Shown here in pieces: positions 33,264 through 50,608 of a stretch of 64,000 nt of DNA (position 1 is the first letter of the stretch; each line of letters opens with the position of its first letter). The DNA lies in assembly GCA_024742275.1 (NCBI GenBank), contig JANSYS010000018.1, forward strand, positions 1 through 64,000, read 5' to 3'. The notes beneath the pieces were generated by a model, which saw nothing but the letters and a program-made list of their open reading frames with translations, had not been told where the DNA came from and did no database searches. The position numbers were made by a program, and so were the translations under genes. The stretch comes from Alphaproteobacteria bacterium. GTDB taxonomy: Bacteria > Pseudomonadota > Alphaproteobacteria > Thalassobaculales > Thalassobaculaceae.

Positions 33264-34379
33264 TTATGAGAAGATCGCCAGCGGCGGGCCTAGGGCGCCA
33301 CGATCGACCGTGATGCCAAGTCCAGGGCCGTCCGGTAGAGCGCCGCGCCCATTCTTCGAGCGGGGCTCGTAGCCGGCTACATGCTCGTTGGTCCAGTCGT
33401 TGAAGAACGAGACATGCATCAGACTTTCGGGCGGCGAACTTGCCGCCACCTGGGCGACCGCGGCCGACACCACGTCTCCGCCCCACATGTCCTCGATGCA
33501 GTAGGTCATGCCGAGCGCGTGCGCGGTATTCCTCATGGCGACCGCGGCGCCGATGCCGCCCACCCGTCCGAGCTTGATGTTGACGGCGCCGGCGCCGGCT
33601 TCCGTCTTCGCGCGGAACAGGTCGCCGAGCGTCACCACGCTCTCGTCGAGCACCATCGGCAAGGCCGTGCGCGCGCTTATCAGGGCGCAGTCCGCCAGGT
33701 CCCGGCAGGGTTGCTCTATGAAGACGTCGAGCCCGGCGATTTCCCGCACCGCGATTGTCGCCGCTGACAGGCTCCAGCCGCCATTGGCGTCCGCGATGAT
33801 CAGCAGATCGTCGTTTCCTGCGTCGGCGGCCACCTCTGCCGCCGCCTTGACCCTGAGAGCATCGGCACGCGGATCGTCTCCGACCTTGAGCTGGAACCGC
33901 CGGATGCCCGTCGCCGCCCTTCGGCGCACGAACGCGGCCATGTCCTCCGGCGCACCCAACGGCACCGCCTCGTACAACGGAAATTCTCGGGACAGCACGC
34001 CGCCGAGCAGGGCGGCGACCGGGAGTTGGAGGGCTTTGCCGAACAGATCCCAGCAAGCCGTCTCCAGGGCGCTCTTGGCGTTCGCCTGTCCCATAAGCGC
34101 GGCGTCCATCCTACGTGCAGCAGCAGCCGGGTTGCAGGGATCCTCTCCGATCAGGCCCGGTGCCAACTCGCCGAGAGCGGCGCGCGTGGTGGCGGCGGAG
34201 GTGGGCAGGTAGGTGCCGCCGAGCGTCGCCGTCTCACCCCATCCGTCCAGGCCGTTGTCGCCGACGATCCGGACCAGGGTCGACGGCTGATGGCGGGCCG
34301 CTCGGCCTTTCGACATGACGTACTCGCCATGGGCATAGGTCAGGTCGTAGGCGTAGAGTTCGATCGACTGGATCTTCAT
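33264..34379 (-). CDS. Enolase-superfamily (mandelate racemase/muconate lactonising type) enzyme
   Basis: This 371-residue protein has the complete barrel motifs: QLKVG (catalytic Lys on the second strand, with Gln in place of the first Lys of the usual KxK), IIADANGGW, VFIEQPC and VLDESV (Mg2+ ligands Asp, Glu, Asp), then NIKLGRVGG. It most resembles the muconate lactonising subgroup that includes cis-3-hydroxy-L-proline dehydratase and dipeptide epimerases. The exact reaction cannot be read from sequence. It is third in a reverse operon behind the phosphopantetheinyl transferase and AspH-type hydroxylase, inside the cluster, so it may make, remove or recycle an amino-acid building block. 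It converges with the NRPS, whose stop is 20 bases away. Confidence 0.85.
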   Translation of the reverse strand: MKIQSIELYAYDLTYAHGEYVMSKGRAARHQPSTLVRIVGDNGLDGWGETATLGGTYLPTSAATTRAALGELAPGLIGEDPCNPAAAARRMDAALMGQANAKSALETACWDLFGKALQLPVAALLGGVLSREFPLYEAVPLGAPEDMAAFVRRRAATGIRRFQLKVGDDPRADALRVKAAAEVAADAGNDDLLIIADANGGWSLSAATIAVREIAGLDVFIEQPCRDLADCALISARTALPMVLDESVVTLGDLFRAKTEAGAGAVNIKLGRVGGIGAAVAMRNTAHALGMTYCIEDMWGGDVVSAAVAQVAASSPPESLMHVSFFNDWTNEHVAGYEPRSKNGRGALPDGPGLGITVDRGALGPPLAIFS

Positions 34380-34441: not shown

Positions 34442-34999
34442 CTACTGCCGCTTACCTGCGCCCTGCTGCAGGGCCTCGGCCAGTTCCGGCGACATGGCCA
34501 GATCGACCTCTGTCTTGCCGGGACGCAGAAACTCGATCAGCAGCACCACCCGACGGGTGATGTCGTCGTTCCAAGCCTCATGCTCGATCATATCGTTGAA
34601 AGCCATGAACCTGCCGGGTGTCCAGTGGTAGGTTTCCCGACCGACGCGAATCCCGCACTTCTCCGGTACGATCAATGCCAGATGTCCGACATAGAGGGCA
34701 TGCGAATAACCGATGTGGGGTTCGATGCGGGCACCTGGTTGGAGTACCGAGAACCCAGCGCTGCGCAAGCCCGGTATGGAATCCAGGAGACGTGTTGTCT
34801 TCGGGCACCGCGCGCAGTTGTCGTCGAACCGCTCTCCGAGCAGATAGAAGCCGAACGCATCCCATCCTTGGCCGTACAGATGGCGTTCCGGCCATGGGAT
34901 GAGCTCGCGCGACTCCAGATCCTCCATCTCCTGGAGAATATCGCGCCATCCGGATTCAAGACGGGCCGTGAACTCGAACTGGCTGGTATCGATGAACAT
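34442..34999 (-). CDS. Aspartyl/asparaginyl beta-hydroxylase (AspH) family oxygenase
   Basis: This 185-residue Fe(II)/2-oxoglutarate oxygenase is of the AspH fold. The family motif EPHIGYSHALYVGHLALIVP gives His95, and FNDMIEHEAWN gives His140. AspH-type enzymes coordinate iron with two His and lack the usual acid. A later R-x-VLLIEF strand carries the 2-oxoglutarate Arg. The start at 34999 is chosen because GGGAGG lies at 35009-35014; an earlier ATG at 35020 adds MVGRKTA but lies upstream of that site. In this cluster it is a second, unrelated candidate for beta-hydroxylation or another C-H oxidation. Substrate unknown. Confidence 0.88.
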   Translation of the reverse strand: MFIDTSQFEFTARLESGWRDILQEMEDLESRELIPWPERHLYGQGWDAFGFYLLGERFDDNCARCPKTTRLLDSIPGLRSAGFSVLQPGARIEPHIGYSHALYVGHLALIVPEKCGIRVGRETYHWTPGRFMAFNDMIEHEAWNDDITRRVVLLIEFLRPGKTEVDLAMSPELAEALQQGAGKRQ

Positions 35000-35044
35000 C
35001 GCCGTTTTCCTCCCGACCATCGGCCATCTTTCTACCCGTGATTA

Positions 35045-35776
35045 TCATGGCAGCGTGTCGAATGACCACGATCTAAGGTCTATCGGCCCCAACGATCCAG
35101 CAGCACACGCGATCGCCGCGATCCAGCCGGGCCGAGGTTGGATCAGGCCAAATCGCCAGTCCGACGGGTCTCCCGTCGCCGTGGAGACGAGGCGCGGCGG
35201 GTCGGTCGTGATATCCACCGAGAAACTGTCGAGGGGATGCGACAGTCCTTCGCCCAGCGCCTTCACGAACGCCTCCTTGAGAACCCAGCAGCGGTAGAAC
35301 CGGTCGAGTGCATGCGCGTCGCCGGGATCGCCGATCGCGGCCAATTCATGCGGAGTGAAGAACCGGGCCGCGACGGCGGCGAAATCGTCGATCCGGCGGA
35401 CCCGTTCGATGTCGACGGCAAACCGCTCAACGGGTCCGAGGCCAATGAGGGCGAGGTCGTCGGAGTGGGAGCTTGAGAAGATCGGGGGCCCGCTTTCGGC
35501 GGTCAGCAAAAAGGGGCGGCCGAATGCCGGATCCGCGATGAACCGCAGTTGCTCCGGCGGGACGCCCGTCGCGCTCCCGAGGATTTGACGAAGGGCCGCG
35601 CGCCGGACGACAAAGCGATCTCGATCTCGCGGGAAGCGGTACCGTTCGGCTCTCTCGATTTCGTCGACGCTCAGCAGAGACTTGATTTGTTTTACAACTA
35701 TCGGTGATATATCAAGAGGTACGGTCCAGAGCGAGACGGGGGCGGGCCCAGAGTCTCTGGCAATGTTCGCCATCAT
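35045..35776 (-). CDS. Sfp-type 4'-phosphopantetheinyl transferase
   Basis: This 243-residue enzyme transfers the phosphopantetheine arm from CoA to carrier-domain serines. Visible motifs are FAVDIE (Mg2+ ligands Asp and Glu) and WVLKEAFVKALGEGL (the WxxKEAxxKaxG signature), with FPRDRDRFVVRRAALR near the N-terminus. It is expected to activate the carrier domains of the PKS and NRPS proteins in the cluster. Two ATG codons in a row (35776 and 35773) share a GGAA site; the first is used here. It leads the reverse operon with the AspH-type hydroxylase and enolase-type enzyme. Confidence 0.93.
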   Translation of the reverse strand: MMANIARDSGPAPVSLWTVPLDISPIVVKQIKSLLSVDEIERAERYRFPRDRDRFVVRRAALRQILGSATGVPPEQLRFIADPAFGRPFLLTAESGPPIFSSSHSDDLALIGLGPVERFAVDIERVRRIDDFAAVAARFFTPHELAAIGDPGDAHALDRFYRCWVLKEAFVKALGEGLSHPLDSFSVDITTDPPRLVSTATGDPSDWRFGLIQPRPGWIAAIACAAGSLGPIDLRSWSFDTLP

Positions 35777-35978
35777 CGATTCCAGTTCAGATCAAAATGC
35801 TGCAATTCACCGATCCTTGTAGTAACTTACCCTGGCGAAAAGGATCCGGGCACCATGGACGATCAAGGTATACAACCGTTGGGCCGTCGGTAGGGACTGT
35901 TACCCGGAATAGTGCAGGTGACCGTAATTCTCTTGGTTTTGCTGAAAGATAGCAGCCCGGAAACTCTAGGAGAGCACC
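35777..35978. promoter_or_regulatory. Divergent intergenic region between PPTase and the long forward operon
   Basis: This 202-base non-coding stretch is more AT-rich than its surroundings. It must contain promoters for the reverse PPTase operon and for the forward block that begins with the alanine-rich protein gene. I see no convincing paired -35/-10 boxes, terminator or tandem operator. The forward gene has an AGGAG site at 35970-35974. Confidence 0.45.
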
Positions 35979-36614
35979 ATGGCAGAAGCAATTCAGACTG
36001 CGGCGTCCGCTGCAAAGGAAGCAACCAAGGCGGCGAAGGCGCATCTCGCAGCGGTTGATCCGACGGCGGATGTCGTTGCGGCGGCAAAGGATCACCCCTC
36101 GGCCCGGAAGCTCATCTCGGCGGTTCAGTTTCACGGCGCCGCTCTCGTCGATGCCACCGACGCCCTGGTCGATGCCGTGGACTTCGACAAGGTGACCGCG
36201 TCCCATGCAGCCAAATCCACCGCTGGCAACGCGCATATCGATACGGCCAAGCTGGGCAAGGCGACGGACGGTCTGAAGTCCGCGGCCGACCTGAGCGCCG
36301 TTGTCGCTGCGGTGAACGACATGGCGGGCGACGCCTCCCTGGTCGATGAGATGAAGGCCGGTTTCAAGGCCAACGGTCTCGAAGGCGGCTACGATGAAGT
36401 TCGTGGTGCGTTGAAGAGCATCAATGTCGACCAGATCGGCGTTGTGAAGCATCTGGAGGCGGTGATCGCCAAAGCGAAGGCGGAGGGCAGCGAAGACGCC
36501 GACGCGCTCGCGCACATGCGCAAGGAACTGGAAGCGGTCGACGCGAAGCTGAAGTCCGAACTGGGCGCTCTCCTGAAGGCCATCGACGGTTTTCTCGCGA
36601 AGCTCGCGGCCTGA
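35979..36614 (+). CDS. Alanine-rich helical protein, function unknown
   Basis: I do not recognise this 211-residue protein. It is almost wholly helix-forming, rich in Ala, Lys, Asp and Val, with no Cys, Trp or Pro-rich segment. It has no signal peptide or membrane segment, and a lysine-alanine opening (TAASAAKEATKAAKAHLAAV). Its C-terminal part (about 140-211) has heptad-like spacing (KELEAVDAKLKSELGALLKAI). An AGGAGA ribosome binding site and ordinary codon use argue that it is real. It sits first in the long forward block, ahead of the starter megasynthase, with its own 3' hairpin. Phasin-like surface binding or a scaffold role would fit the composition, but this is speculation. It lacks a double-glycine leader and is not an obvious export precursor. 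Confidence 0.85.
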   Translation: MAEAIQTAASAAKEATKAAKAHLAAVDPTADVVAAAKDHPSARKLISAVQFHGAALVDATDALVDAVDFDKVTASHAAKSTAGNAHIDTAKLGKATDGLKSAADLSAVVAAVNDMAGDASLVDEMKAGFKANGLEGGYDEVRGALKSINVDQIGVVKHLEAVIAKAKAEGSEDADALAHMRKELEAVDAKLKSELGALLKAIDGFLAKLAA

Positions 36615-36646
36615 TCGTCGAGCGACGCAGGCTTTTCCGACAATTG

Positions 36647-36674
36647 CCATCGGCGGCTTCAACCCCGCTGATGG
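36647..36674 (+). terminator. Strong stem-loop after the alanine-rich gene, no U-tract
   Basis: Arms CCATCGGCGG (36647-36656) and CCGCTGATGG (36665-36674) pair over ten bases with one G-U pair and an eight-base loop, and can be extended outwards by one more pair. No T-run follows, so full termination is unlikely. It lies 33 bases after the stop of the alanine-rich gene and 134 bases before the starter megasynthase. It may be a partial terminator or an RNA-processing site that sets different expression of the two. Confidence 0.5.
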
Positions 36675-36807
36675 CGGTCGGGATTCACACTGAGCCGAGT
36701 GCGGGGACCGGTCGGTCTGACCTGGGTGTGGCAGGTTTCGCGGCTTTCGGAGCCGGAGAAAGATTGCGATCGTGGCGGCGACCCGTGTCGGCAAACCCGG
36801 AGATCCG

Positions 36808-39800
36808 ATGACCGCCGTCGACTGGTTGAAGGCTGCGGCGACCCGATCGCCCGACCGAACGGCATTTGTCGATCTCGACGGCGATGGGGTGAGCGTCCTC
36901 TCTCTTACCTGGGGAGAGGTCGACCGCGGCGCGCGGCTGGTCGCGGGGTTTTTGAGACAACGGGTTCAGCCGGGCGATCGGGTGGTTCTGGCCTTTGCCT
37001 CCGGCGTATCGTTCGCGCAAGCGTTGTTTGGCTGCTTCTATGCCGGAGTGATCGCGGTTCCGTGCGCGCCGCCGGTGCGCGCCCGGGCGGGAGGGCGGGC
37101 CCTCGGGGTTCTCACGGATTGCGGCGCGGCCGTTATTCTGACCGCGGCGGATATGTGTGAGGCCGTCGCGCGGACCGTCACCGAAATGGAGCGGGCGCCC
37201 GACTGCTTCGCTCTCGAGGCGGTGCTGACAGCTGAGATGGCGACCGTGGCGCCGCTTCACGCGGCGAAACCGGGCGACGTCGCGTTGTTGCAGTACACGT
37301 CGGGATCGACCAGCCGCCCGCGCGGCGTGGCGATCACCCACGCCAACATCGTCGCCAATCTAACCATGCTTATAGACTGGTCCGACGCCGGGCCAGATTC
37401 GAACTTCCTGTCCTGGTTGCCGTTGTTCCACGACATGGGGCTGGTCGTCGGCTATCTGATGCCGCTCGCGTCCGGCGGGACCAGCCATCTGATTACCCCG
37501 GCCGCCTTCGCCAAGAAACCGTCCGTGTGGCTTTCCGCGGCATCGCGGTTTCGCGCGACCCACAGCGCAGCGCCTAATTTTGCGTTCGATCTCTGCGCTC
37601 GTCAGGTCGCCGATACCGAAGTCGCGGAACTGGATTTGTCCTCGTTTCACTGGGTGCTCAATGCGGCGGAAACGATCCGCCGGACGACCAACGACGCGTT
37701 TCTGGCGCGCTACGAGCCCCTGGGTTTCAGACCGGGTGCGTTGGCGCACTACTACGGCCTTGCCGAGGCTACCGTCTGCGTGACCGGACACAGGCCGGGC
37801 CGAGGACCGGTCTACCTTGCCGTTTCAGGCGCCGCGCTGGAGCGGCGCCGCGTGGCCGATGTCGATCCGTCTGATCCAGACGCGCGCTGGATCGCGGGGG
37901 TCGGCTGGACCGATGACGACTCCCGGGTCGTGGTCGTGGATCCGGATACGGGGGGCGAGGTCGGCGACGACCGGATCGGTGAGATCTGGGCCAGCAGCCC
38001 GAGTATGGCCCGTGGATACTGGAACAACCCCGATGCCACCGCCGCCACCTTCGGTTGGCGCGTAGAGGGAGACGAGCGGCCTTACTTCCGAACGGGCGAC
38101 CTTGGATTTCGGCGGGGCAACGAACTCTACATCACCGGCCGGCTGAAGGAGTTGATCATCGTCGGCGGGCGCAACGTGTACCCGGTGGATATCGAGGCGA
38201 CCGTTCAGGACCTGGACCCGATGCTGGTCCGCGATCGGGGGGCGGCGTTTCCGGTGGAACGGGACGGGACCGAGGCCGTAGCCGTTGTGCAGGAACTTCG
38301 GCGGGAGGGCGATGTCGACGTCGACGCCCTGCTGCGCCGGGCGGTTCGCGCCGTCGCGGATGCCCATGAGGTCGACGTTGCGGCCGTGGTGCTGATCCGG
38401 CAAGGCACGCTGCCTTTGACCAGCAGCGGCAAAGTGCAGCGCGGCGAGGCGCATCGCCGCCTTACGGCCGGAGAATTGAAGGAGATCGCTGCCTACCGCC
38501 GCAGCGAACGTTCGGAGCCGGCGGATCATGCAGCATCGAAGGCTCCCGTGATGCCGGGGGCGGTTGTCGCTGCCGTCTGCGAGGAGATCGCCGACGTCCT
38601 TGAACTGCGGGTCGAGGACATCGATCCGACCGAGCCGCTGACGAATTTCGGCTTTGGCTCGCTGGTCGCCGCCCGTCTGGCCGAGAGGCTCGGTGAGCGG
38701 TTCGGTCTCGAAGTCGAGCCCACACAATTCTACGACACGCCGACCGTCGAAGCCGTTTCCGAGTGGATCATGGAGCACGGGGGCATCGAGCGGTCCCAAG
38801 CCCGACAATCGGTCGAACCGTCGGTAGCGGAGGATGACGCCATCGCGATCGTCGGCATGGCCTGTCGCATGCCCGGAGCGTCGGATCTCGAGGCGTTCTG
38901 GGAGATGCTGCTGGCCGGCGACGAGGGGATCGGCGATCCGCCGGCTGACCGACGTGAGTTGGTGGAACAACTGGCCGCGTCACCCGATGTTCCGGCCCGA
39001 GCCGGATATATCGACGGGTGCGGCGGGTTCGATCCGTCTTTTTTCAAGATGGGGAAGCGAGAAGCGGACCTGCTGGATCCGCAGCACCGTCTCCTGCTGG
39101 AGACGACATGGCATGCCCTGGAACATGCGGGGCAGCGACCGGAGGATCTGCGCGCTGCACCGGTCGGCGTCTTCGTCGGCATCAGTACGTCGGACTACGG
39201 TGAACTGCTCTCGGATCAGGACAGCGCGGCGGACGCGCACTTTCCCACCGGCAACGCCCATAACATGGCCGCTAACCGGCTCTCATATCTGTTCGACTGG
39301 CGGGGGCCGAGCTTCGGCGTGGACACCGCCTGCTCGTCGTCGCTTGTCGCCACCCATCTGGCAGTGCAGAGCCTTCGACGGGGCGAATGCTCGATGGCGG
39401 TCGTCGGCGGCGTGAATCTGATCCTCACGGCCCGGCTGACCCGCGCCTTCCATGCGGCCGGAATGCTTTCCGCCGATGGGAGATGCAAGACCTTCGACGC
39501 CGCTGCCGATGGCTATGTGCGCGGCGAGGGATGCGGCGTGGTCGTGCTCAAACCGATGGCGGCGGCGCGGCGCGACGGCGACCGGATCATCGCGGCGATT
39601 CGGGGGAGCGCGGTCAATCAGGATGGTCTGAGCAACGGTATCACCGCGCCCAACGGTCCGGCGCAGCAGGCCGTGATCCGCTCGGCTCTGGCCGATGCCG
39701 GTATTGAGGCCAGCGCGGTCGGCTATGTCGAGACCCATGGAACCGGCACCGATCTCGGCGACCCGATTGAAGTTGGCGCGCTTGCCGAGGTGCTGTCCGA

Positions 39801-42800
39801 GCCACGGAAACGGCCGGTTCCGGTGTTGGGCGCGCTCAAGAGTAATATCGGCCACCTGGAAGCGGCGGCCGGTATCGCTGGACTGATTAAAGCGGCTCTC
39901 GTCGTGTCGCGCGGTGAGATCCCGCCGAACCGGAACTTCAGCGCGCCGAACCCGAAGATCGTTCGAGCGCTCGACCGGTTGAAGCCGGTGGCTCAGCGTC
40001 GGCGTTGGGGAGGTGACGGTCACCGCCGGGTCGCCGGAGTCAGCAGTTTCGGGTTTGGCGGCGCCAACGCCCATCTGGTGCTCGCCGATATGGAGAACGA
40101 TCCGGTCGCGGCCGATAGGTGGCCTGCCGAACTCTTGTGCCTGAGTGCGGGATCCGAGAGCGGCTTGCGTGCTCTCGCTGAGGCGTGGCGGCAGGCTTTC
40201 GCCGCGAAGCCGGACGTACCGGTTGCGGCCTGGGCAGTGGCGGCTGCTCGCCATCGGGGCCAACTCCCCTGGCGTCTCGCGCTCGCCGGACGGACGGTCG
40301 CAGAGTTCGACGCCACGTTGACCGACTGGATTGCCGGTCGGGATGGCGCAGTGGCCGGCAGGTCGCCCAAGCGCGGTCCGGCGAGGGTCGGATTGGCGCT
40401 CGTGTCTTCAAAGCCGCGTCAGTTGTCCGACGCGGGAACGCGCTCGTCCGCAGGGGACGCAACAGAATTTCCGGAGGTTGCCGATACTCTGAGAGAGCTT
40501 GGTCTCGCCGAGCGCGGCGGCGCTGGGGCGGCGCTTCGCTTCGCCCGGGCTTTGGGCCTGGTGCGTCTGGTGCAGGCTTGGGGGCTGAAACCATCGGCCG
40601 TTGCCGGCGTCGGGCCGGCGGCCTGGGCGGTGGCGGCGGCATCCGGCTTGGTGACGCCGCACGAAGCCATGCGGGCCGTGGTTGACGGCGACGGCGCTCC
40701 GCCGACCGGCCTGGGCACAGCCGGAATAGCGGTTGTCGCTGACGGGGGTGATCCAGCGGCGGCTCTGGTTCGGAGCGGGTGCGATCACATTGTCGAGCTG
40801 AACGAGTCGGCTGATGCCGCGTCCATCCTGACCGCAATCGGCAGGGCCTGGGTGTCCGGCTCGGGCATCGACCCGGCGCGCGGTGTTGAAGGGCGCCCGC
40901 AGGCCGCGGTGGACCTGCCGCTGATGCGTTTCGACAGACAGCTTTGCTGGTATGATGCGCCCGCCGACCAGACGGGCTGGCTGCGGTCCGCCTTGGGGGC
41001 GTTGGGCGCGGCTCAAGCGCCGATAGCCACGCTCGGACCGGCTCTGCGGCGGCTGACCGCGCTGGGCGAGGTGCGCCACGCGATCGCAACGCCGCCGCCG
41101 CCGCCTGCTGCGTCCGATATTCGAGCCGCGTTGACTGATCTGATCGCCGAGTTGCTCGGCCGGACTTCTGAGGAAATCGACGTCCATGAACGATTCGTCG
41201 AGATGGGGGCCGATTCGATCGTGCTCACGAGGGCGTTGCGGCGCTTCGAGGAGCGCTTCGGGGTTAAGCTGACCGTTCGGCAACTGTTCGAGACGACACC
41301 CGATATCGCCAGCCTGGCCGATCATCTTGCCGATGGCTCCGGAATCGGTCTGAAAGGAACAGGGGCCGATCCGTCGTCGGCAGCGGACGCGGAGCGGGCG
41401 GCGACCGGGGCTCCGCCGTCGGACGATCTGCGCGCCTTGCTGAGGCGCACCGACGAGACCATGCGGGCCTTGATCGCCCAGCAGGAGGAACTCCGTCGGC
41501 GGATCGAGGGCGGGCCGATGCCCGTGGCGAAACCGGTTGGCGCCGCGGCGCCGACCGCGAGCGCGTTGCCGCTGTGGCGGCCGGCGAAGGACCCGGTGGC
41601 GACCGAGGAACGGAATCGTGCGCTCGATCGCCTCGTCCCCCGCTACACGAAGATGACGGCCGGCTCCAAGCGGCTCGCTGCGGCGTTCCGCCTGCGGCTC
41701 TCGGACAATCGGGCCTCGGCCGGGTTCCGGTTCTCGACCAAGGAGATGGTGTATCCGCTTGTCGGCGAGCGAGCGAAGGGTGCGTATCTGTGGGACGTCG
41801 ACGGTAACCGCTATGTCGATATCTCGATGGGTTTCGGCGCCTATCTGTTCGGCCATGCGCCGGATTTCGTCGAGGCCGCGCTCCGCGAGGAGATCGACCG
41901 GGGGTTTGCTTTGGGTCCCCAGGCTCGGCTTGCGGGGGAAGTCGCGGATCTGGTGTGCGAACTGACCGGCTCCGAGCGCGTCGCCTTCGCCACGACCGGC
42001 ACCGAAGCGGTGATGACGGCACTGCGCCTTGCGCGGACCGTGACCGGAAGGCGCCGGATCGCGGTCTTCGAAGGCGCCTATCACGGTCATTTCGACGGTG
42101 TTCTGGCCGCGGCAGGGACCGACGGAGCGGTCCCCATGGCGCCCGGCGTGACAGAGTCCATGGTCGCCGATGTTCTGGTTCTGCCCTACGGCGACGATGC
42201 GGCGCTGGATGTGCTTCGTGATCAGGGAAGCGATCTTGCGGCAATCCTTGTCGAACCGGTGCAGAGCCGACGTCCCGGCCTTCAGCCCGCGCAGTTCTTG
42301 AAAGAATTGCGCGTGATCGCCGATGCCGCCGGCGCGGTCCTGATCTTCGATGAGATGATCACCGGGTTCCGGATCGGATCCGGCGGGGCGCAGGCTCATT
42401 TCGGCGTCCGAGCCGATCTCGCGACCTATGGCAAGATCTTGGGGGGCGGTCTGCCGATCGGCGCGATTGCCGGCGCGGCGCCACTCCTCGACGCGTTGGA
42501 TGGCGGCCCGTGGCGCTACGGTGACGATTCCTTTCCTGCCGCCGAAACGACCTTCTTCGCGGGCACGTACAACAAGCATCCGCTGGTAATGGCATCGGCG
42601 CGCGCCATGCTCCGAAGGATTGCCGACCTTGGAGACGGGCTCTACGCCGATCTCAACAACCGCTCCGCCGCGCTTGCGGAACGCCTGGAACGGGTGTTCG
42701 TCGATGCCGCGGCTGATCTTCGGATCGCCCGGTTCGGATCGCTCTTCCGGTTCAGCCACGGGGACAATGCCGACGCGTTCCTCTACGCCCTGCGGTCGCG

Positions 42801-45800
42801 TGGGGTGTTTGTGTGGGAAGGTCGGAACTGCTTCCTCTCGACGGCGCACGGCGATGCCGAGGTCGATGCCGTCGTCGATGCCGTGGCGGGCGCCCTGGAC
42901 GATGCCCGCGGCGGTCCGCAACGCCCGCATCCGCTTGAAGCTGCCCGGCCGTCGCCGGACGTCTTCCCGCTGAGCCGGGCGCAACGCCAGCTTTGCCTGC
43001 TTGGACAGCTTCGCCCAGAGGCTGGCCGCGCCTATCACGAGACGGTCGCGCTCGAGGTTCCGAGCGGACTGGATGCGGAGGCGTTGCGGGTTGCGATGAT
43101 AGCCGTGACGGAGCGGCATGCGGCGCTGCGCACCGTCCTCGATGTCGACGCGGGCGAACAGCGTGTTCTGCCGCTCGCGGTGACGGCCCCAAGCCTGAGC
43201 ATCCACCGACTTCGCCCCGGCGAGGACGAGCGGACGGCGATGATCGACGCTGCCGCTGCACCGTTTTCACCCGAGTCGCCGCCGGTGCGATTGCGGGCGA
43301 TCATGCGTCCCGACGGGTCGGCCCTGCTGCTTCTCGTTGCCCATCACGCCGTTGCCGACGGCTTGTCCCTCGGCATCGTGCTGTCGGATCTCGGAAAGGC
43401 GTATTCGGCACTCCGTGCCGGGTTGCCGGCGACTCTTCCCTCCGGCACCGGCTTCGCGTCCTTTTTGACCCGTCAGGCCGAGCGCGGCGATCTGCGGCGT
43501 CGGAACCTGGACGCCTGGACGCGGGCCTTGGGCACGCCGCCCATCCTTGACCTGCCGATCGATCGACCGCGTCCGGCCGACGCCAGCCATACGGGCGCTG
43601 CTGTCGGCGCGGATCTGCCGGCACCGTTGAACGGGGCGGTGGCGGTCGCCGCCCGTAGGCTCTCTGTGACGCCGGTGATGCTCTATTTCGGCGCCTACCT
43701 GTTGCTCCTGCATCGCTTGAGCGGACAGGGCGTGCTGGTCGCCGGGTTGCCAAGCGACTGCCGTATTGCCGAGGAGGATGCCTCGGTGGTGGGGGACTGC
43801 GCGCAGATGCTGCCGATCCTAAGCCGCCTTGCACCTCAGGACACGGTGGCCGGCTTCCTCACGGCGCTGCGCGGCACTATGCTCGATGCCTATGAGCGGC
43901 AGGATTTCGATTTCGCTGAGTTGCTCGACGTTCTCGATCTGCCATCCGACCGCTCGCGGACGCCCCTGATTTCCGCCGCCTTCAACCTTGATCAGACCGA
44001 CGCAGTTCCGGATGGGTTCGGCGCAGGGACACGCGTGCTACAGCCGCCGGTTAGCGCTGTGAAGTTCGAACTCTGGCTCAACATGACGCGGGTCGGCGAG
44101 CGGTTGAGCGCACGGCTGGAGTACGCGAGCGACCTGTTCGAGGAAGCGACGATCGACCGATGGCTTGGTCTCTACACCAACGTACTGGCGGCGATCACAG
44201 AGGACGCCGACCGCCGGGTTGCGGATCTGCCAGGTTGGCAACGCCCGCGGTCGTCCGAGTGCGTGACGGTAGCGGCGGATACGGTGCCCGCTTGGATCGC
44301 GTCTACGGCGGCCATGGCCGGCGACCGGGAGGCGATCGCCGCACCGGATGGAACGCTGTCCTACGCCGGCTTGGTTCGCCGCATGGACGGTATCGCCGGT
44401 GCTCTGGTTGCGCGGGGCGTCAGCACCGAGACACCGGTCGGGGTTTGCATGGAGCCTGGCCTCGCAATGGTGTCGGCATTGCTCGGCGTACTGAGGGCGG
44501 GCGGATGCTATGTCCCGCTGGAGCCGACCCAGCCGCAATCCCGGTTGGCGTCAATGGCAGCGTCGGCGCGGTGCGCTCTGGTGGTTACCGACGAGGCAAC
44601 GGCGGATCTCGCGTCGGGTCTCGGCGTGCCGGCGGTGTCGATTTCGGCACTCGACAGTGGAGGCGCCGTCAGCGTGTCGAAAGCGCCACACCCGGATCAG
44701 TTGGCGTATGTGATGCATACCTCGGGCTCGACCGGTGCCCCGAAATCCGTGGGTATCCCCCATCGTGCCCTGACCAATCTCCTTGCCTCGATGGCGTCGG
44801 CGCCGGGCCTTGAAGAAACCGATCGATTTGTTTCCGTCACGCCCCTGGGTTTCGACATCGCCGCCCTGGAACTTTTTCTCCCCCTCGTGACCGGCGCCCA
44901 CCTGCGCATCCTACCGAGCGACGCGCGGCGCGATCCTGAAGCCATCGGCGCCGCGATCGCGGAGACCGGAGCCACGGCAATGCAAGCGACTCCGGCAACC
45001 TGGCGCCTGCTCACGGACAGCGGCTGGCGGTCGCCGGCCGGGTTCAAGGTGCTTTGCGGCGGGGAAGCGCTGCCCGCGACCCTGGCGGAGCGTTTGATCG
45101 GCAGCGGCGCGGCGCTTTGGAACCTGTACGGACCGACCGAGACGACGATTTGGTCGATGCGCGCCGCGATCGCGACGCCGGCGTCGATCACGTTGGGCGA
45201 GCCGGTTGCGGGAACCGAAATATATGTCGTCGATGGTAACGTCGACCTGGTGCCGGACGGCGCCGTCGGAGAAATCGCGATCGGCGGCGTAGGGCTTGCG
45301 CGGGGCTATGGCGGACAACCCGGTCTCACAGCGGACCGTTTCCGACCGGACCCTTATTCCGGCGTCGCTGGCGCGCGGCTTTACCTGACTGGCGATCTTG
45401 CGCGGACGGCTCCGGATGGCGGACTGACCTATCTTGGACGGGGCGATTATCAGACCAAGATCCGCGGTCATCGGGTCGAGATCGGGGAAATTGAGGCCGC
45501 ATTGGAGCAGCTCCAGTCGGTCGACGCGGCGGCCGTCCTGATCCAAACCGGCCCGGATGGCGGCGCCGAACCGGTCGGTTTCATCGTCCCCACAGGCGGC
45601 ACGACGCCGTCGGTCGAAGACCTGCGCGCCGGATTGAGCCTGTCGTTGCCGCAGTACATGGTGCCGACGCGATTTCATCTGGTCGACGCATTGCCCTTAA
45701 ATGCCAACGGCAAGATCGACCGGAAGGCTTTGCCATCCTTGATCGGTCGTTCCGCGGCATCGGAGATTCCGTACGCGCCGCCGGCAGACGGTACCGAAAG

Positions 45801-46125
45801 CGTTGTCGCGGACGTGTGGAGCGAGGTGCTCGGTCTGGCGCGCGTCGGTGCCGATAGCGGATTTTTCGAGCTGGGGGGTACGTCGCTTGCGCTGGCGCGG
45901 GTTCATGACACGCTGCAACGGCGGCTCGGGCGGCGTTTTCCTTTGGCTTTGTGCGTGAGTCGACCGACGGTGCGGGCGCTGGCCGCCGCACTCGACGGAG
46001 AGGACCGACCGGCACATCGGACGGTGGCTGCCGTGGCCGCCGCAGAAGATCGGGCGCGGCGTCGGCGCGCGACCCTGGAAACCTTGAGACGCCCGTCGGA
46101 CGGGCCGAAAGAAGCGGAGGGCTAG
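36808..46125 (+). CDS. Starter megasynthase FAAL-ACP-KS-(inactive AT)-ACP-aminotransferase-C-A(Gly)-T
   Basis: This protein has 3105 residues. Fatty acyl-AMP ligase (1-567): LQYTSGSTSRPRG, WLPLFHDMGLV. ACP1: Ser618 in GFGSL, with Gly replacing the usual Asp. KS (677-1095): Cys842, His977, His1016. A shrunken AT remnant (about 1095-1388) has GVGPAAW at 1267-1273 where GHSxGE should be. ACP2: Ser1470. Class III aminotransferase (about 1598-2027): PLP Lys1876 in YGKILGGG. C: HHAVADG at 2179-2185. A: code D-I-L-Q-L-G-L-I-W-K, which I recall as glycine. T: Ser3026. This is the iturin A/mycosubtilin starter order: fatty acid activation, one malonate extension, beta-transamination, then the first amino acid. 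ATG 36808 follows GGAG and starts the FAAL fold; GTG 36772 would add 12 residues. Confidence 0.93.
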   Translation: MTAVDWLKAAATRSPDRTAFVDLDGDGVSVLSLTWGEVDRGARLVAGFLRQRVQPGDRVVLAFASGVSFAQALFGCFYAGVIAVPCAPPVRARAGGRALGVLTDCGAAVILTAADMCEAVARTVTEMERAPDCFALEAVLTAEMATVAPLHAAKPGDVALLQYTSGSTSRPRGVAITHANIVANLTMLIDWSDAGPDSNFLSWLPLFHDMGLVVGYLMPLASGGTSHLITPAAFAKKPSVWLSAASRFRATHSAAPNFAFDLCARQVADTEVAELDLSSFHWVLNAAETIRRTTNDAFLARYEPLGFRPGALAHYYGLAEATVCVTGHRPGRGPVYLAVSGAALERRRVADVDPSDPDARWIAGVGWTDDDSRVVVVDPDTGGEVGDDRIGEIWASSPSMARGYWNNPDATAATFGWRVEGDERPYFRTGDLGFRRGNELYITGRLKELIIVGGRNVYPVDIEATVQDLDPMLVRDRGAAFPVERDGTEAVAVVQELRREGDVDVDALLRRAVRAVADAHEVDVAAVVLIRQGTLPLTSSGKVQRGEAHRRLTAGELKEIAAYRRSERSEPADHAASKAPVMPGAVVAAVCEEIADVLELRVEDIDPTEPLTNFGFGSLVAARLAERLGERFGLEVEPTQFYDTPTVEAVSEWIMEHGGIERSQARQSVEPSVAEDDAIAIVGMACRMPGASDLEAFWEMLLAGDEGIGDPPADRRELVEQLAASPDVPARAGYIDGCGGFDPSFFKMGKREADLLDPQHRLLLETTWHALEHAGQRPEDLRAAPVGVFVGISTSDYGELLSDQDSAADAHFPTGNAHNMAANRLSYLFDWRGPSFGVDTACSSSLVATHLAVQSLRRGECSMAVVGGVNLILTARLTRAFHAAGMLSADGRCKTFDAAADGYVRGEGCGVVVLKPMAAARRDGDRIIAAIRGSAVNQDGLSNGITAPNGPAQQAVIRSALADAGIEASAVGYVETHGTGTDLGDPIEVGALAEVLSEPRKRPVPVLGALKSNIGHLEAAAGIAGLIKAALVVSRGEIPPNRNFSAPNPKIVRALDRLKPVAQRRRWGGDGHRRVAGVSSFGFGGANAHLVLADMENDPVAADRWPAELLCLSAGSESGLRALAEAWRQAFAAKPDVPVAAWAVAAARHRGQLPWRLALAGRTVAEFDATLTDWIAGRDGAVAGRSPKRGPARVGLALVSSKPRQLSDAGTRSSAGDATEFPEVADTLRELGLAERGGAGAALRFARALGLVRLVQAWGLKPSAVAGVGPAAWAVAAASGLVTPHEAMRAVVDGDGAPPTGLGTAGIAVVADGGDPAAALVRSGCDHIVELNESADAASILTAIGRAWVSGSGIDPARGVEGRPQAAVDLPLMRFDRQLCWYDAPADQTGWLRSALGALGAAQAPIATLGPALRRLTALGEVRHAIATPPPPPAASDIRAALTDLIAELLGRTSEEIDVHERFVEMGADSIVLTRALRRFEERFGVKLTVRQLFETTPDIASLADHLADGSGIGLKGTGADPSSAADAERAATGAPPSDDLRALLRRTDETMRALIAQQEELRRRIEGGPMPVAKPVGAAAPTASALPLWRPAKDPVATEERNRALDRLVPRYTKMTAGSKRLAAAFRLRLSDNRASAGFRFSTKEMVYPLVGERAKGAYLWDVDGNRYVDISMGFGAYLFGHAPDFVEAALREEIDRGFALGPQARLAGEVADLVCELTGSERVAFATTGTEAVMTALRLARTVTGRRRIAVFEGAYHGHFDGVLAAAGTDGAVPMAPGVTESMVADVLVLPYGDDAALDVLRDQGSDLAAILVEPVQSRRPGLQPAQFLKELRVIADAAGAVLIFDEMITGFRIGSGGAQAHFGVRADLATYGKILGGGLPIGAIAGAAPLLDALDGGPWRYGDDSFPAAETTFFAGTYNKHPLVMASARAMLRRIADLGDGLYADLNNRSAALAERLERVFVDAAADLRIARFGSLFRFSHGDNADAFLYALRSRGVFVWEGRNCFLSTAHGDAEVDAVVDAVAGALDDARGGPQRPHPLEAARPSPDVFPLSRAQRQLCLLGQLRPEAGRAYHETVALEVPSGLDAEALRVAMIAVTERHAALRTVLDVDAGEQRVLPLAVTAPSLSIHRLRPGEDERTAMIDAAAAPFSPESPPVRLRAIMRPDGSALLLLVAHHAVADGLSLGIVLSDLGKAYSALRAGLPATLPSGTGFASFLTRQAERGDLRRRNLDAWTRALGTPPILDLPIDRPRPADASHTGAAVGADLPAPLNGAVAVAARRLSVTPVMLYFGAYLLLLHRLSGQGVLVAGLPSDCRIAEEDASVVGDCAQMLPILSRLAPQDTVAGFLTALRGTMLDAYERQDFDFAELLDVLDLPSDRSRTPLISAAFNLDQTDAVPDGFGAGTRVLQPPVSAVKFELWLNMTRVGERLSARLEYASDLFEEATIDRWLGLYTNVLAAITEDADRRVADLPGWQRPRSSECVTVAADTVPAWIASTAAMAGDREAIAAPDGTLSYAGLVRRMDGIAGALVARGVSTETPVGVCMEPGLAMVSALLGVLRAGGCYVPLEPTQPQSRLASMAASARCALVVTDEATADLASGLGVPAVSISALDSGGAVSVSKAPHPDQLAYVMHTSGSTGAPKSVGIPHRALTNLLASMASAPGLEETDRFVSVTPLGFDIAALELFLPLVTGAHLRILPSDARRDPEAIGAAIAETGATAMQATPATWRLLTDSGWRSPAGFKVLCGGEALPATLAERLIGSGAALWNLYGPTETTIWSMRAAIATPASITLGEPVAGTEIYVVDGNVDLVPDGAVGEIAIGGVGLARGYGGQPGLTADRFRPDPYSGVAGARLYLTGDLARTAPDGGLTYLGRGDYQTKIRGHRVEIGEIEAALEQLQSVDAAAVLIQTGPDGGAEPVGFIVPTGGTTPSVEDLRAGLSLSLPQYMVPTRFHLVDALPLNANGKIDRKALPSLIGRSAASEIPYAPPADGTESVVADVWSEVLGLARVGADSGFFELGGTSLALARVHDTLQRRLGRRFPLALCVSRPTVRALAAALDGEDRPAHRTVAAVAAAEDRARRRRATLETLRRPSDGPKEAEG

Positions 46126-46131
46126 GCGGTC

Positions 46132-46983
46132 ATGGCAACGATCGATGCGGAGACTGGGTCGGGAACCGAGCCGTTGGCAATCGAGGAGCGCACGACGCTG
46201 CCGACTGCCGAAGAGTTCCGCCGGGAGTACGTGGCGCGCAGCCGTCCGTTGGTGATCCGTGGCGGAATACGGGATTGGCCGGCGTTCCGTGACTGGACGC
46301 CGGAGTTCCTGGCCGGAAAGGTCGGCGAGAACGAGGTCAACGTGCAGCAGTCGCCGACCGGAATCTTCGGGCTGGATCCTGAGAAGGGCGGGCCGCGCTA
46401 CCAGGAGATTTCGACCACGCTGGGCGAATATGTGTGGACGATGATGGACGCGGAGGATGATGGCATCCGGTACTATGTGCAGCGCGTGAACATTCCGGAT
46501 CGCCTGCCTGAACTGATGGAGGACTTCGCGGTTCCCGACTATGTCGACGCGTCGAAGGTCTATCTGATCAATCTGTGGCTTGGGCCGGCGGGCAACGTGA
46601 CCACGTTGCACTACGACACCCCGAACAACTTTCTCGCCCAGGTGCGTGGCCGAAAGCGGCTCAAGATGTTCTCACCATGGCAGGCACGCAGGCTCTATCC
46701 GTGCCGCAGCAAGGCCTACAACATGAGCCAGGTGAACATCGAAGCGCCGGACCTGGACCGGTTCCCGCGCTTCAAGGACGTGACCATGCACGAGGTCGAG
46801 ATCGAGGAGGGTGATCTCCTGTTCATTCCGACCTACTGGTGGCATCAGGTTTACAGTCTAACCGCGGGTATCAGCGTCAATATCTGGTGGATTCCCTTGT
46901 GGCGCCAGTTGATTGGTCCGCAGCTTTGGGACAACGTGCCGGACATCGCCCGCGAGTTGATGAACCGTGCCGGACCGCGTTAG
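46132..46983 (+). CDS. JmjC/cupin-8 type Fe(II)/2-oxoglutarate-dependent oxygenase
   Basis: This 283-residue protein is of the JmjC-like cupin-8 family. Iron ligands are visible as His160-x-Asp162 (LHYDTPNN) and His238 (PTYWWHQVYS), with Lys in the FLAQVRGRKRLKMF strand that usually binds 2-oxoglutarate. The N-terminus (RPLVIRGGIRDWPAF) is the usual family entry. It starts six bases after the megasynthase stop, so it is co-transcribed and probably a tailoring hydroxylase acting on the lipid tail or an amino acid. Substrate cannot be told. It is the third structurally unrelated 2-oxoglutarate oxygenase in the cluster. Confidence 0.9.
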   Translation: MATIDAETGSGTEPLAIEERTTLPTAEEFRREYVARSRPLVIRGGIRDWPAFRDWTPEFLAGKVGENEVNVQQSPTGIFGLDPEKGGPRYQEISTTLGEYVWTMMDAEDDGIRYYVQRVNIPDRLPELMEDFAVPDYVDASKVYLINLWLGPAGNVTTLHYDTPNNFLAQVRGRKRLKMFSPWQARRLYPCRSKAYNMSQVNIEAPDLDRFPRFKDVTMHEVEIEEGDLLFIPTYWWHQVYSLTAGISVNIWWIPLWRQLIGPQLWDNVPDIARELMNRAGPR

Positions 46984-47233: not shown

Positions 47234-48024
47234 GGTCTCCGTCCAACCGACGGTGCGCCGCCCCGATCGGGGGATGGCTCCTGCCGCCGCGCCGCGAAGA
47301 AACCATCCGTTTCCGTCTGTTCTGCTGGCCCTATGCCGGGCTCGGCGCTTCCCTGTTCGTGAATTGGAGCCGGCACGCCCCGACGGGGGTCGGGATCTAC
47401 GGCATTCAACCGCCGGGGCGGGAAAGCAGAATGTCGGAGCCGCCGCTTCGGCGGGTGACCGACATGGTTGCCCAGTTGACGGAAGCGATGGCAACAGAAC
47501 CAAGCCTCTTCGATGCTCCGTTCGGGCTGCTTGGATGCAGTTTCGGCGGAATCGCCTCCTTCGAGTTGGCCCGAACGCTGGTCGCCGAAGGCGTGCCGTC
47601 GCCGTCGGCCTTCGTTGTTCTCGCTTGCCGGCCGCCGCATCGGGTTCATCCGGTCGGGCCGTTTAGCATCCTCGATGACGATGCGCTCACCGAGCGTCTG
47701 GATCGGGACTACGGAGGCGTTCCTGAGATCCTGCGCCAGCAGCCCGACCTTCTGCGCCTGTTTCTGCCGACGCTGCGGGCGGATCTCGAAGCGATGGAGA
47801 GTTACGTCCCGCCGAAGAACCCGGTAGCGCTCGGCTGCCCCGTTCTGGCGATCGGCGGCGCGGACGACGGCCAGGTTCCGGCATCGGTCCTCCAGGAATG
47901 GACGCGATATGGCGCTGAAGGATCGACGGCGCGGACCGTCGGTGGACGGCACTTCCTTGTACGCGACGACCCGGCGGCAGCGCTCGCGACGGTCCTCGAC
48001 GGTCTGCAGCCATGGCTGCCGTAA
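47230..48024 (+). CDS. Type II thioesterase, probably with a CTG start codon
   Basis: This alpha/beta-hydrolase is of the GrsT/RifR kind and removes wrong or stalled acyl groups from carrier domains. Motifs are FCWPYAG, GCSFGG (Ser104 by this start), GGADDG and GGRHF. The first ATG/GTG/TTG in frame is GTG 47359, but homology begins earlier, with [20 protein letters not shown], and no standard start exists between the in-frame stop at 47161 and there. CTG 47230 overlaps the MbtH stop as CTGA and is preceded by GGAGGG at 47214-47219 with ten bases spacing, so it is the likely start (264 residues, normal for the family). A sequencing error is the alternative. The stop overlaps the next gene. Confidence 0.85.
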
Positions 48025-49175
48025 GGCTCGGGATCGTCTCGCCGCTCTGGCCACCCGTTGGGGGTGGGGGTGAAATCTACATGCAGCGGATCGGAAGGGC
48101 GTTGGCCGCGCTGGGCGTTCCGGTAGCTGCGTGCGTCGGGATCGCTCAGCCGGAACCGGCTGTGGGCGTCGAGATCAAGGCGGGGCCGCGGGACGTGGAT
48201 CCGGACGATCCGACCTCTTGCGCAACCTGGTATCCGGAAGTGGAGCGGTGGGTTCAGGCATGGCGGCCGACGCATGTGCTCGTCAACGCGCCGTTCTCCC
48301 GTGTAAGCCATTCCCACGCCGAACCTGTCTACGCGCTGCTCCGCCGCCAGGGCTGCCGGATCGGGGCCGTGCATCTCGATCTGGATCGTGGCGTGGTCGA
48401 GGGCCTTGCCGAAGCCTACGCAGCCACTGGGGATTGGAAACAGGCGGCCGCCGCAGGCGAACACAGATTGGCTGAGATGGCGACCACGGTCGGCGCAACG
48501 ATCTTCGGCGAGATCGGGTCGCCGCTGTTCTTCGACTGCGACTTCGTAGTGTCGTGCTCGTCCTGGTCGGACCGATTCGTCGATCCGCTTGGCCGCGTGC
48601 CTCGGATCGTCTTGCATCCGCCGATGGGCGACGCCCTCGCCGGTAGCCCGACGGAGCGGATGGCCCCCGTGGATTTCGGTTTTGTCAATCCGAGGCCGCA
48701 CAAAGGGGGGCGGTCGCTGGCTGAAATCATCCGGCGGGCTCCCGCATCCTGGCGGTTTCGAGGTCTGGAAGGCGGACATGGCAGCGCGTTCTTGCGGTTT
48801 TTGCAGGACATCAAGGGTGCCGAGAGCCGAGTGGATCTGATCCGCCGCGTCGGTGACATGCGCGGCTTCTACGACGGGATCGGCGCGCTCCTGATGGCCA
48901 GTCTGTATGAGGGGTACGGCATGGTCGCTGTAGAGGCGATGATCCGCGGCACTCCCGTCATCGCCCGCGACTATCCGGCGATCCGCGAGGCGGTGGGCGA
49001 CGGTGCGGCGATCGTGCGGTTCGATGCAACGGCCGCCGATTGGCTCTCGGCGATGGCCGAGATCCGGGAGAACCCCGGCCCGTGGCAGCAGGCCGCCGCG
49101 AGCCGTGTGGCCGAGCTTGCCGAGCGAGAAGTCGCCGAAATTCAAGGGTTCCGCAGTTTCCTTTCGGAAATCTGA
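48012..49175 (+). CDS. GT4-type glycosyltransferase
   Basis: This 387-residue GT-B glycosyltransferase has the N-terminal loop PLWPPVGGGGEIYMQRIGRAL and the C-terminal nucleotide-sugar site ASLYEGYGMVAVEAMIRGTPVIA. It overlaps the thioesterase stop by 13 bases. It is the stand-alone member of three glycosyltransferase-like modules in the cluster and is moderately similar in motif layout to the N-terminal domain of the NRPS fusion (SLWFESFGMAAVDSMLRG), which suggests duplication. It probably attaches a sugar to the lipopeptide in the cytosol before export. Sugar and acceptor unknown. Confidence 0.88.
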   Translation: MAAVRLGIVSPLWPPVGGGGEIYMQRIGRALAALGVPVAACVGIAQPEPAVGVEIKAGPRDVDPDDPTSCATWYPEVERWVQAWRPTHVLVNAPFSRVSHSHAEPVYALLRRQGCRIGAVHLDLDRGVVEGLAEAYAATGDWKQAAAAGEHRLAEMATTVGATIFGEIGSPLFFDCDFVVSCSSWSDRFVDPLGRVPRIVLHPPMGDALAGSPTERMAPVDFGFVNPRPHKGGRSLAEIIRRAPASWRFRGLEGGHGSAFLRFLQDIKGAESRVDLIRRVGDMRGFYDGIGALLMASLYEGYGMVAVEAMIRGTPVIARDYPAIREAVGDGAAIVRFDATAADWLSAMAEIRENPGPWQQAAASRVAELAEREVAEIQGFRSFLSEI

Positions 49176-49330
49176 ACGCCCTTTATTCGAGGTTCGAGGC
49201 ATTCCCCGGGTACATATACTCTCAGAAGACTGCCCACGTCGTGCATGACTTCGTCTCTCCAAGGCGATACTCTTTCGGCGACTGTTTGCATCCTCGACAC
49301 GAGTGTCGGGTGGACTAGCGGGGAGTGATC

Positions 49331-50608
49331 GTGGCGCAGATTGAAGAAGCGTCCGGAGCGGTTGGTGGGCTGGTTGGACCGTCTACCCTTGCGGGGCCGG
49401 AGCGGCTTCAAACCGCGATCCGGATCACCACGCCGGCATCCTGGGTCATCGGTGCGGTCTTCGCCTTCCTCACGGTTGCGGTGATCGTCTGGGGCGTTCT
49501 GGGAGAACTTTCGACCCGTGTCAGCGGTCTCGGTATCGTCGCGACAGAGGTCGGCGATGTCTACGAACTGCGAAGCGCGGCGGCGGGCACGGTCATCGAA
49601 ATGCCGGTGGCGGTCGGCGGTACGGTCCAGAAAGGCCAGTTGATTGCCAGGATCGGGCAGCCTGGACGCGATAGCGAGATCCAGGCCGCTTGGCAGAAGA
49701 TCGAGCGGCAGCAACAGGCGTACAACAAGCGAGACCAAGACACCCGACAGGACATTGCTGATCGCAGGACGGAGACGGACCGCCAGATTGCCGTGTTGCG
49801 TCAGAAGCAGACGACGCTGAGACAACGGATTGCCTATTTGTCGGACCTCCTGAACATCCTGGTTGAGGATCGAAAGAAACAGTTGGTTACCGAAGCGCGG
49901 GTGGAAGAGGTCCGGACGGAGCTGGCGGATGCGCGGGTCAGGCTCAACGAGACGGACGTGGATATCAGCCAGGCCAATCTCAGGTTCTTGGAGTTCGAGG
50001 ATCAGCGCCAAGAGGAACTCGGTAGGCTCCGCAACGAGTTGGAGGATGCCAACGCCCGGTTGGAGACGCTTCGTCTGACCCAGCAGGACGAAACGGTGAT
50101 CACGGCGACTGAAGACGGCGAGGTGATCAGCGTCGAAGCGAAGATCGGCGATGTTCTGGCCGCGGGCGCGCCGATCGCCCGCATCGACGCCATGGGCGAC
50201 GCGCTTCATGTGATTGCGTTCTTCGAAGCGGCTGACGGCAAGAAGGTCGCGCCGGGTATGGATGTCTCGGTTTCCCCGAGTACGGCTGAACGGGCGCTCT
50301 GGGGGACGATCAACGCGACCGTCAAGCGTGTGTCGCAGCTTCCCGAGACGCTGGCGGCCATCAACAACCAACTCGGCAACCAGCAATTGGCCGAGCAGAT
50401 CTTCTCGTCGGGCCCACCGATCCTGGTTGAAGTCGAATTGAAGAAGAATCAGAAGACGCCGAGCGGCCTGGACTGGTCGTCGGGCGAAGGGCCGCCCTAC
50501 AAGATCACCCATGGAACCATGTCGGCGGTTTCTGTGGTCGTGCGCAGGGAAGCACCGGCCAATCTCGTAGTCCCGGTGTTCTGGCGCTGGGTCGGGCATG
50601 GCAGCTAA
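49331..50608 (+). CDS. HlyD-type membrane fusion protein of an NHLM-type exporter
   Basis: This protein of about 425 residues has one N-terminal membrane helix (WVIGAVFAFLTVAVIVWGVL), a biotinyl-lipoyl hairpin (GTVIEMPVAVGGTVQKGQLIARIG), a coiled coil (about 120-240) and a returning lipoyl half (ATEDGEVISVEAKIGDVLAAG). It resembles the HlyD proteins of NHLM bacteriocin export systems and is followed by the matching pair of ABC proteins. GTG 49331 is preferred since GGGGAG (49320-49325) lies five bases upstream; GTG 49325 is the alternative. The gap 49176-49330 before it shows only one weak hairpin and may hold a secondary promoter. It should bridge the ABC proteins to the TolC-type channel at 4177. 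Confidence 0.88.
   Translation: MAQIEEASGAVGGLVGPSTLAGPERLQTAIRITTPASWVIGAVFAFLTVAVIVWGVLGELSTRVSGLGIVATEVGDVYELRSAAAGTVIEMPVAVGGTVQKGQLIARIGQPGRDSEIQAAWQKIERQQQAYNKRDQDTRQDIADRRTETDRQIAVLRQKQTTLRQRIAYLSDLLNILVEDRKKQLVTEARVEEVRTELADARVRLNETDVDISQANLRFLEFEDQRQEELGRLRNELEDANARLETLRLTQQDETVITATEDGEVISVEAKIGDVLAAGAPIARIDAMGDALHVIAFFEAADGKKVAPGMDVSVSPSTAERALWGTINATVKRVSQLPETLAAINNQLGNQQLAEQIFSSGPPILVEVELKKNQKTPSGLDWSSGEGPPYKITHGTMSAVSVVVRREAPANLVVPVFWRWVGHGS

Follow-up and report, generated by a model that had tools for sequence, protein, structure and literature searches.

The closest described counterparts of the enzyme analyzed here are the Bacillus iturin-family starters MycA, ItuA and BamA, single proteins with the order acyl ligase-ACP-KS-ACP-AMT-C-A-PCP and no acyltransferase (AT) domain. 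In mycosubtilin synthesis, acyl loading of ACP1, malonyl loading of ACP2 by FenF and beta-amination are supported by experiment (PMC3039948, where the MycA steps are summarised). In cyanobacteria, the beta-amino fatty acid of puwainaphycin and laxaphycin is made by a fatty acyl-AMP ligase (FAAL), a PKS and a class-III aminotransferase (PMC4219810, PMC7524897). A glycosylated beta-amino lipopeptide, occidiofungin, is already known from Burkholderia (PMC9494966, PMC9792986).

Here we describe an alphaproteobacterial protein of similar layout, which with good confidence we predict to be the starter for beta-amino fatty-acyl lipopeptide synthesis by a hybrid PKS-NRPS, with malonate supplied in trans. 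Since FAAL/KS/AMT starters are already widespread, the lineage finding alone is modest; the interest of the protein lies in the loss of its AT and in how that loss is rescued.

The starter protein and its ortholog

The window, a stretch of 64,000 nucleotides from contig JANSYS010000018.1, contains a stop-free frame translating into 3,105 residues (here P0001). Pfam, NCBIfam and PDB comparisons gave the domain order FAAL-ACP-KS-AT relic-ACP-AMT-C-A(Gly)-PCP (Table 1), with all Pfam matches above cut-off (two AMP-binding, the N- and C-terminal ketoacyl-synt, three PP-binding, Aminotran_3, Condensation and AMP-binding_C). The aminotransferase (AMT) matched mycosubtilin synthase MycA best (PDB 6KFM/6KFU; E = 8e-141, 473 bits), compared with 229 bits for the second-best family, glutamate-1-semialdehyde aminomutase. 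The FAAL motifs YTSGST..P.G and TSSGK are present, as are the KS Cys, His and His (VDTACSS, VETHGTGT, KSNIGH), all three carrier serines, the AMT Lys and Asp (in TYGKILGGG and DEMITGFR) and HHxxxDG in the C domain. P0001 thus belongs to the FAAL/KS/AMT starter class, in which FAAL, KS and MycA-type AMT precede the first NRPS module, here with intact motifs. The code of its first A domain reads as Gly by established codes, and BamA, treated by the identical procedure, returned its Asn code (DLTKIGEVGK). In these respects the preliminary description was borne out: the domain order in one protein, with its coordinates, and Gly in place of Asn were both confirmed, while a beta-amino fatty-acyl starter in an alphaproteobacterium is supported as a prediction from the domains, the motifs and the MycA-type AMT.

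A genome of another genus in the same family (G398) encodes an ortholog that is 64% identical overall and has the same AT relic; none of the catalytic motifs checked is missing from it. Most of the cluster is also matched there, over three contigs and in matching order (TolC, C-A-PCP, A-PCP-E, TauD, PKS, GT4-NRPS, NRPS-TE, beta-hydroxylase, starter, cupin, TE, GT4, NHLM triad), so that the cluster is kept in two genera. No match on these three contigs was found for the mandelate-racemase-like protein, the phosphopantetheinyl transferase or the polysaccharide deacetylase.

Table 1. Features of the starter protein P0001 and of the surrounding cluster (window positions; aa, residues of P0001)
Feature	Position	Strand	Evidence or remark
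TolC-like outer-membrane channel, probable cluster edge	4177-5592	-	conserved in G398
NRPS C-A(Ser code DVWHLSLIDK)-PCP	5638-8826	-	domain search, A-code extraction
NRPS degenerate C-like domain-A-PCP-E	8823-13052	-	domain search
TauD-family Fe(II)/2-oxoglutarate dioxygenase	13045-14187	-	domain search
PKS subunit KS-AT-KR-ACP-C	14058-19637	-	its AT is the sole genomic AT besides the FabD-like gene (PF00698)
Intact AT, GHSLG and HAFH, candidate trans donor for P0001 ACP2	17268-18101	-	350 bits to AT profile
GT4-C-A-PCP-X glycosyltransferase-NRPS fusion	19749-26006	+	domain search; matched in G398
NRPS C-A-PCP-C-A(Ser-like)-PCP-TE, terminal subunit	26000-33244	+	domain search, A-code extraction
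Mandelate-racemase-like, cis-3-hydroxy-L-proline dehydratase-like	33264-34379	-	308 bits, under NCBIfam cut-off of 500
Asp/Asn beta-hydroxylase family	34442-35020	-	conserved in G398
4'-Phosphopantetheinyl transferase	35045-35776	-	domain search
335-aa protein, no known family matched	35787-36794	-	39% conserved in G398
P0001 starter megasynthase	36808-46125	+	translation, Pfam, NCBIfam, PDB, motifs
FAAL	36808-38487, aa 1-560	+	NCBIfam fatty-acid--AMP ligase, E = 4e-128; PDB FAALs 7r7e, 3kxw; FAAL tree
ACP1	38560-38778, aa ~585-657	+	PP-binding; serine in NFGFGSL
KS, Cys-His-His intact	38836-40107, aa 677-1100	+	Pfam, motifs
KS-AT linker, retained	40108-40344	+	linker-AT profile segment 1, 32 bits
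Remnant of AT active-site region, GHSxG to GVGPAA	40540-40683	+	profile segment 2, 7.5 bits; same in G398 ortholog
Post-AT linker (..LPLMRFDRQLCWY), retained	40801-40971	+	profile segment 3, 25 bits
ACP2	41113-41337, about aa 1441-1507	+	Pfam, motifs
MycA-type PLP aminotransferase (AMT)	41605-42918, aa 1600-2037	+	473 bits to 6KFM; invariant Lys, Asp
Condensation domain, HHAVADG	42958-44226, aa 2051-2473	+	Pfam, motifs
Adenylation domain, code DILQLGLIWK (Gly)	44296-45732, about aa 2500-2975	+	code extraction, BamA Asn control
PCP	45775-45987, aa ~2990-3060	+	Pfam, motifs
Cupin_8 (JmjC-like) oxygenase	46132-46983	+	conserved in G398
Stand-alone thioesterase (type II)	47257-48024	+	domain search
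Stand-alone GT4 glycosyltransferase	48012-49175	+	domain search
NHLM-type export triad (HlyD, C39-ABC, ABC)	49325-55750	+	TIGR03794, TIGR03796, TIGR03797 above cut-off

Remains of an AT domain and the probable source of malonate

Between KS and ACP2, P0001 carries an AT remnant that the preliminary description had overlooked. The remnant keeps both flanking linkers but has lost its middle and the GHSxG serine. A profile of 59 cis-AT relatives, spanning KS-AT linker, AT and post-AT linker, matched P0001 in three collinear pieces (linker, lost-active-site region and post-linker) that total 69 bits, against 3.5 bits for the best of 200 shuffles. The central segment alone is weak (7-11 bits), and it is the two flanking linkers that carry the conclusion; an AT profile gave only 8 bits on the same stretch. 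From the end of the KS to the start of the AMT we counted 499 residues, compared with a median of 696 and a minimum of 597 in 60 cis-AT relatives, and the distance between the linkers is 124-153 residues in P0001 and its G398 ortholog versus 11-43 in other AT-less forms. An intact but divergent AT was ruled out, since neither motif check nor AT profile found GHSxG between KS and ACP2 and the KS-to-AMT stretch falls ~200 residues short of the cis-AT median. The three collinear profile pieces, together with the shortened stretch, lead us to conclude at the level of sequence that the AT of P0001 is gutted rather than replaced. The protein also lacks the marks of trans-AT PKS ancestry: both linkers and a relic are kept, and it is nested among cis-AT relatives. 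It preserves the trace of an AT domain lost from an otherwise intact-looking module.

So clearly degenerate an AT could mean that the whole starter module is decaying, with KS and AMT idle and an ordinary acyl chain passed on. We regard this as very unlikely, because every other catalytic motif checked is kept in two genera, the AMT is the best conserved domain between P0001 and the G398 ortholog (81% identity) and the KS the next (76%), compared with 51% and many gaps for the relic, and Bacillus synthetases function without a cis AT (PMC3039948).

Since the AT of P0001 itself is gutted and the genome yielded no discrete AT, ACP2 of a functional P0001 would receive its malonate in trans. Searching the window's genome (G000) with PF00698 returned two ATs only, that of the PKS subunit and a FabD-like gene, and the G398 genome likewise yielded one PKS-embedded AT and a FabD-like gene; a discrete FenF-like AT was found in neither, although the window's assembly (97.9% complete, 88 contigs; G398 is listed as 100% complete) may lack a gene and the search is blind to ATs outside PF00698. 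The arrangement of trans-AT PKSs, where a discrete AT serves AT-less modules, was thus not what the PF00698 search recovered. Three other alphaproteobacterial starters have no cis AT (G247 C232, G095 and G343). Each of these genomes contains one PKS-embedded AT by PF00698, and FabD-like genes were found in G247 and G095, while none was seen in G343, a 92%-complete genome. Across all five AT-less alphaproteobacterial genomes, the PF00698 tally was therefore no discrete AT, one PKS-embedded AT each and FabD in four. At AT-less Bacilli-type loci, in contrast, a discrete AT gene lay beside the starter in all eight cases (from Bacillus, Viridibacillus, Paenibacillus and Alkaliphilus), one of them annotated bamD.

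Taken with the discrete ATs of the Bacilli, the PF00698 result narrows the alphaproteobacterial donor to a PKS-embedded AT or FabD, unless an assembly gap hides the true donor or PF00698 does not cover it, and by exclusion we infer the same pair for P0001. The AT of the PKS subunit appears the likeliest donor, with FabD as the alternative, and the sequence fits both. The HAFH signature seen in the former is associated with malonyl specificity. FabD transfers malonyl in fatty acid synthesis, a FabD-like gene was found in both G000 and G398, and the donor in Bacilli is likewise a stand-alone protein, all of which makes it quite possible, if not the reading we prefer, that FabD serves ACP2; such a pathway would differ from the preferred one in the donor only. 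Against FabD, the dedicated discrete AT kept at every Bacilli-type locus suggests that FabD alone is insufficient there, and a PKS AT accompanies the FabD-like gene in four of the five AT-less alphaproteobacterial genomes. For this last reason, gene presence does not settle the donor. The question, whether an AT built into one megasynthase charges the carrier of another or FabD does so, has become testable, and its answer bears on module engineering.

The AT-less starters of Bacilli (L012, L027, L030, L038, L040, L046 and L056) likewise have both AT linkers still in place around the excised AT, and the iturin-type enzymes therefore look like former cis-AT modules as well. A tree of KS+AMT forces at least five changes of AT state which, if cis-AT is ancestral, means that the AT was lost repeatedly. 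We tentatively propose a scenario, possible rather than probable, in which the starter AT was lost several times, Bacilli kept a discrete AT nearby and alphaproteobacteria came to draw on the cis AT that belongs to another PKS module; P0001 would then be a half-decayed intermediate whose ACP is charged by an AT embedded in another megasynthase.

Surrounding cluster and predicted product

In the pathway that we favor, the FAAL would adenylate a fatty acid and load it onto ACP1, and the KS would extend the acyl chain by one malonate carried on ACP2, which would be supplied in trans, most likely by the AT of the PKS subunit or alternatively by FabD. The AMT would then turn beta-ketoacyl-ACP2 into beta-aminoacyl-ACP2, and the C domain would couple this chain to Gly on the PCP. 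The PKS subunit and the NRPS subunits would take over the chain next, and it would finally reach the TE, which ends at 33244. Pairing of C and A domains makes the following module order plausible: the starter (beta-amino acyl-Gly), the PKS subunit 14058-19637 (one malonate, KR, C), 8823-13052 (A-PCP-E), 5638-8826 (Ser), 19749-26006 (GT4-NRPS) and 26000-33244 (two residues, TE). On this order the product would have some six amino acids plus a single ketide unit. Ring closure may be through the beta-amino group, which by analogy with the iturins probably forms a macrolactam. The product is probably decorated by the glycosyltransferases and Fe/2OG oxygenases and probably exported by the NHLM pair together with HlyD and TolC, pointing to a macrocyclic, probably glycosylated beta-amino lipopeptide. 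We found no described molecule to match this prediction, in which a beta-amino lipopeptide goes together with glycosyltransferases, a dedicated exporter and several Fe/2OG oxygenases.

Several features of the cluster deserve mention in their own right. Where NRPS-fused glycosyltransferases had been reported, one GT4 is indeed fused, at the N-terminus of the 19749-26006 protein, and the second (48012-49175) stands alone. The fusion ends in a domain X of ~540 residues (24381-26003, + strand) with an SVDDD motif and 63% identity in G398; it matched no Pfam, NCBIfam or PDB family, and among 398 genomes of the phylum it had one distant stand-alone match (G774). The N-terminus of the A-PCP-E subunit (11853-13052, - strand) is a degenerate condensation-superfamily domain without HHxxxDG (E = 3e-13, local search) that adjoins the gene for the TauD dioxygenase. 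Judged by sequence, it resembles the interface domains, which are described as recruiting beta-hydroxylases (Reitz 2019, as cited in PMC12230676). The NHLM-type bacteriocin export triad (49325-55750) adjoins the NRPS cluster and is conserved in G398; we found no literature linking NHLM exporters with NRPS. The thioesterase frame 47257-48024 has no ATG, GTG or TTG ahead of its conserved start, the first being a GTG at 47359, which may reflect a non-standard start or an assembly error.

Descent and comparison with known systems

The preliminary description took this domain order to define the Bacillus iturin family and saw in P0001 an extension of iturin chemistry to a new lineage. Neither view held. 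Single proteins of the same FAAL-..-KS-..-AMT kind also occur in Chamaesiphon, Chitinophaga, Microbulbifer, Pseudoalteromonas and Streptomyces. Of 385 alphaproteobacterial genomes sampled, 6 (one of them the window's) encode MycA-type AMTs, which are also found on rhizobial, agrobacterial and Aliiroseovarius plasmids. This rules out that P0001 is unique among alphaproteobacteria. Among the matches listed, MycA-type AMTs extend to cyanobacteria, Bacilli, alpha-, beta- and gammaproteobacteria, Bacteroidota, Actinomycetota, Acidobacteria and Planctomycetes. Occidiofungin, moreover, was known, and the domain-wise phylogeny proposed as a check of iturin-type identity placed P0001 outside the Bacilli.

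P0001 falls, in the KS+AMT tree, into a 100/100 clade of 29 rows that comprises the FAAL-associated starters. Within this clade the Bacilli have a 100/100 clade of their own, and P0001 and its G398 ortholog stand beside Pseudoalteromonas rubra (95/87). The FAAL tree is deeply split, with P0001, cyanobacteria and marine gammaproteobacteria on one side and Bacilli and Chitinophaga on the other. Forcing P0001 together with the Bacilli was rejected moderately for KS+AMT (AU p = 0.015) and strongly for FAAL (AU p = 3e-70), the groups in both tests having been named after earlier trees were seen; common descent with the Bacilli enzymes inside the wider AMT family was thus not recovered for P0001. 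The identical domain order, the MycA-type AMT and the missing cis AT could still suggest an iturin-family (MycA/ItuA/BamA) synthetase acquired horizontally from Bacilli. Given both trees, which reject acquisition from Bacillus, and given Gly in place of Asn and no FenF-like gene found by PF00698, we hold such a transfer to be extremely unlikely. Because the FAAL and KS+AMT trees separate P0001 from the Bacilli, the shared layout is best read as convergent assembly, and the cluster would represent a second route to an iturin-like starter layout.

Among the known systems, puwainaphycin differs from P0001 in having FAAL and ACP encoded by separate genes and in PuwE, which adds a monooxygenase (PMC4219810); the FAALs of cyanobacterial loci fall in the P0001 FAAL clade, and a cis AT is retained in those cyanobacterial loci that the KS+AMT tree includes. 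Occidiofungin and burkholdine resemble the predicted P0001 product as proteobacterial cyclic glycolipopeptides with a beta-amino fatty acid (PMC9494966, PMC9792986). The Burkholderia arboris locus L011 is a probable relative and could be ocf itself. It has the order KS-AT-T-AMT-C-A and, unlike P0001, split FAAL and KS genes, a cis AT and a Ser-like first A-domain code. The occidiofungin xylosyltransferase OcfC is a separate gene, unlike the glycosyltransferase-NRPS fusion of the P0001 cluster. Nearest to P0001 in the KS+AMT tree, apart from its ortholog, is the uncharacterised P. rubra S2471 locus L043 (FAAL-KS-AT-AMT-C-A), which shares the deep FAAL clade and a Gly-like first A-domain code (DILQWGMIW), common in proteobacterial relatives (P. 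rubra, rhizobia, Rhodobacteraceae), but retains an intact cis AT between KS and ACP2.

With MycA, ItuA and BamA, P0001 shares the one-protein layout, the absence of a functional cis AT and an AMT of the same family. It differs from them in a FAAL of another clade, a KS+AMT outside the Bacilli clade, Gly as the first residue, an AT relic that is still visible where the Bacillus systems have a discrete FenF-type AT (fenF/ituD/bmyD), and a cluster in which a PKS subunit, a glycosyltransferase fusion and oxygenases follow. Donor gene, Asn code and descent thus all set it apart from the iturin family, and P0001 is predicted to work like an iturin starter as a member of the wider FAAL/KS/AMT class.
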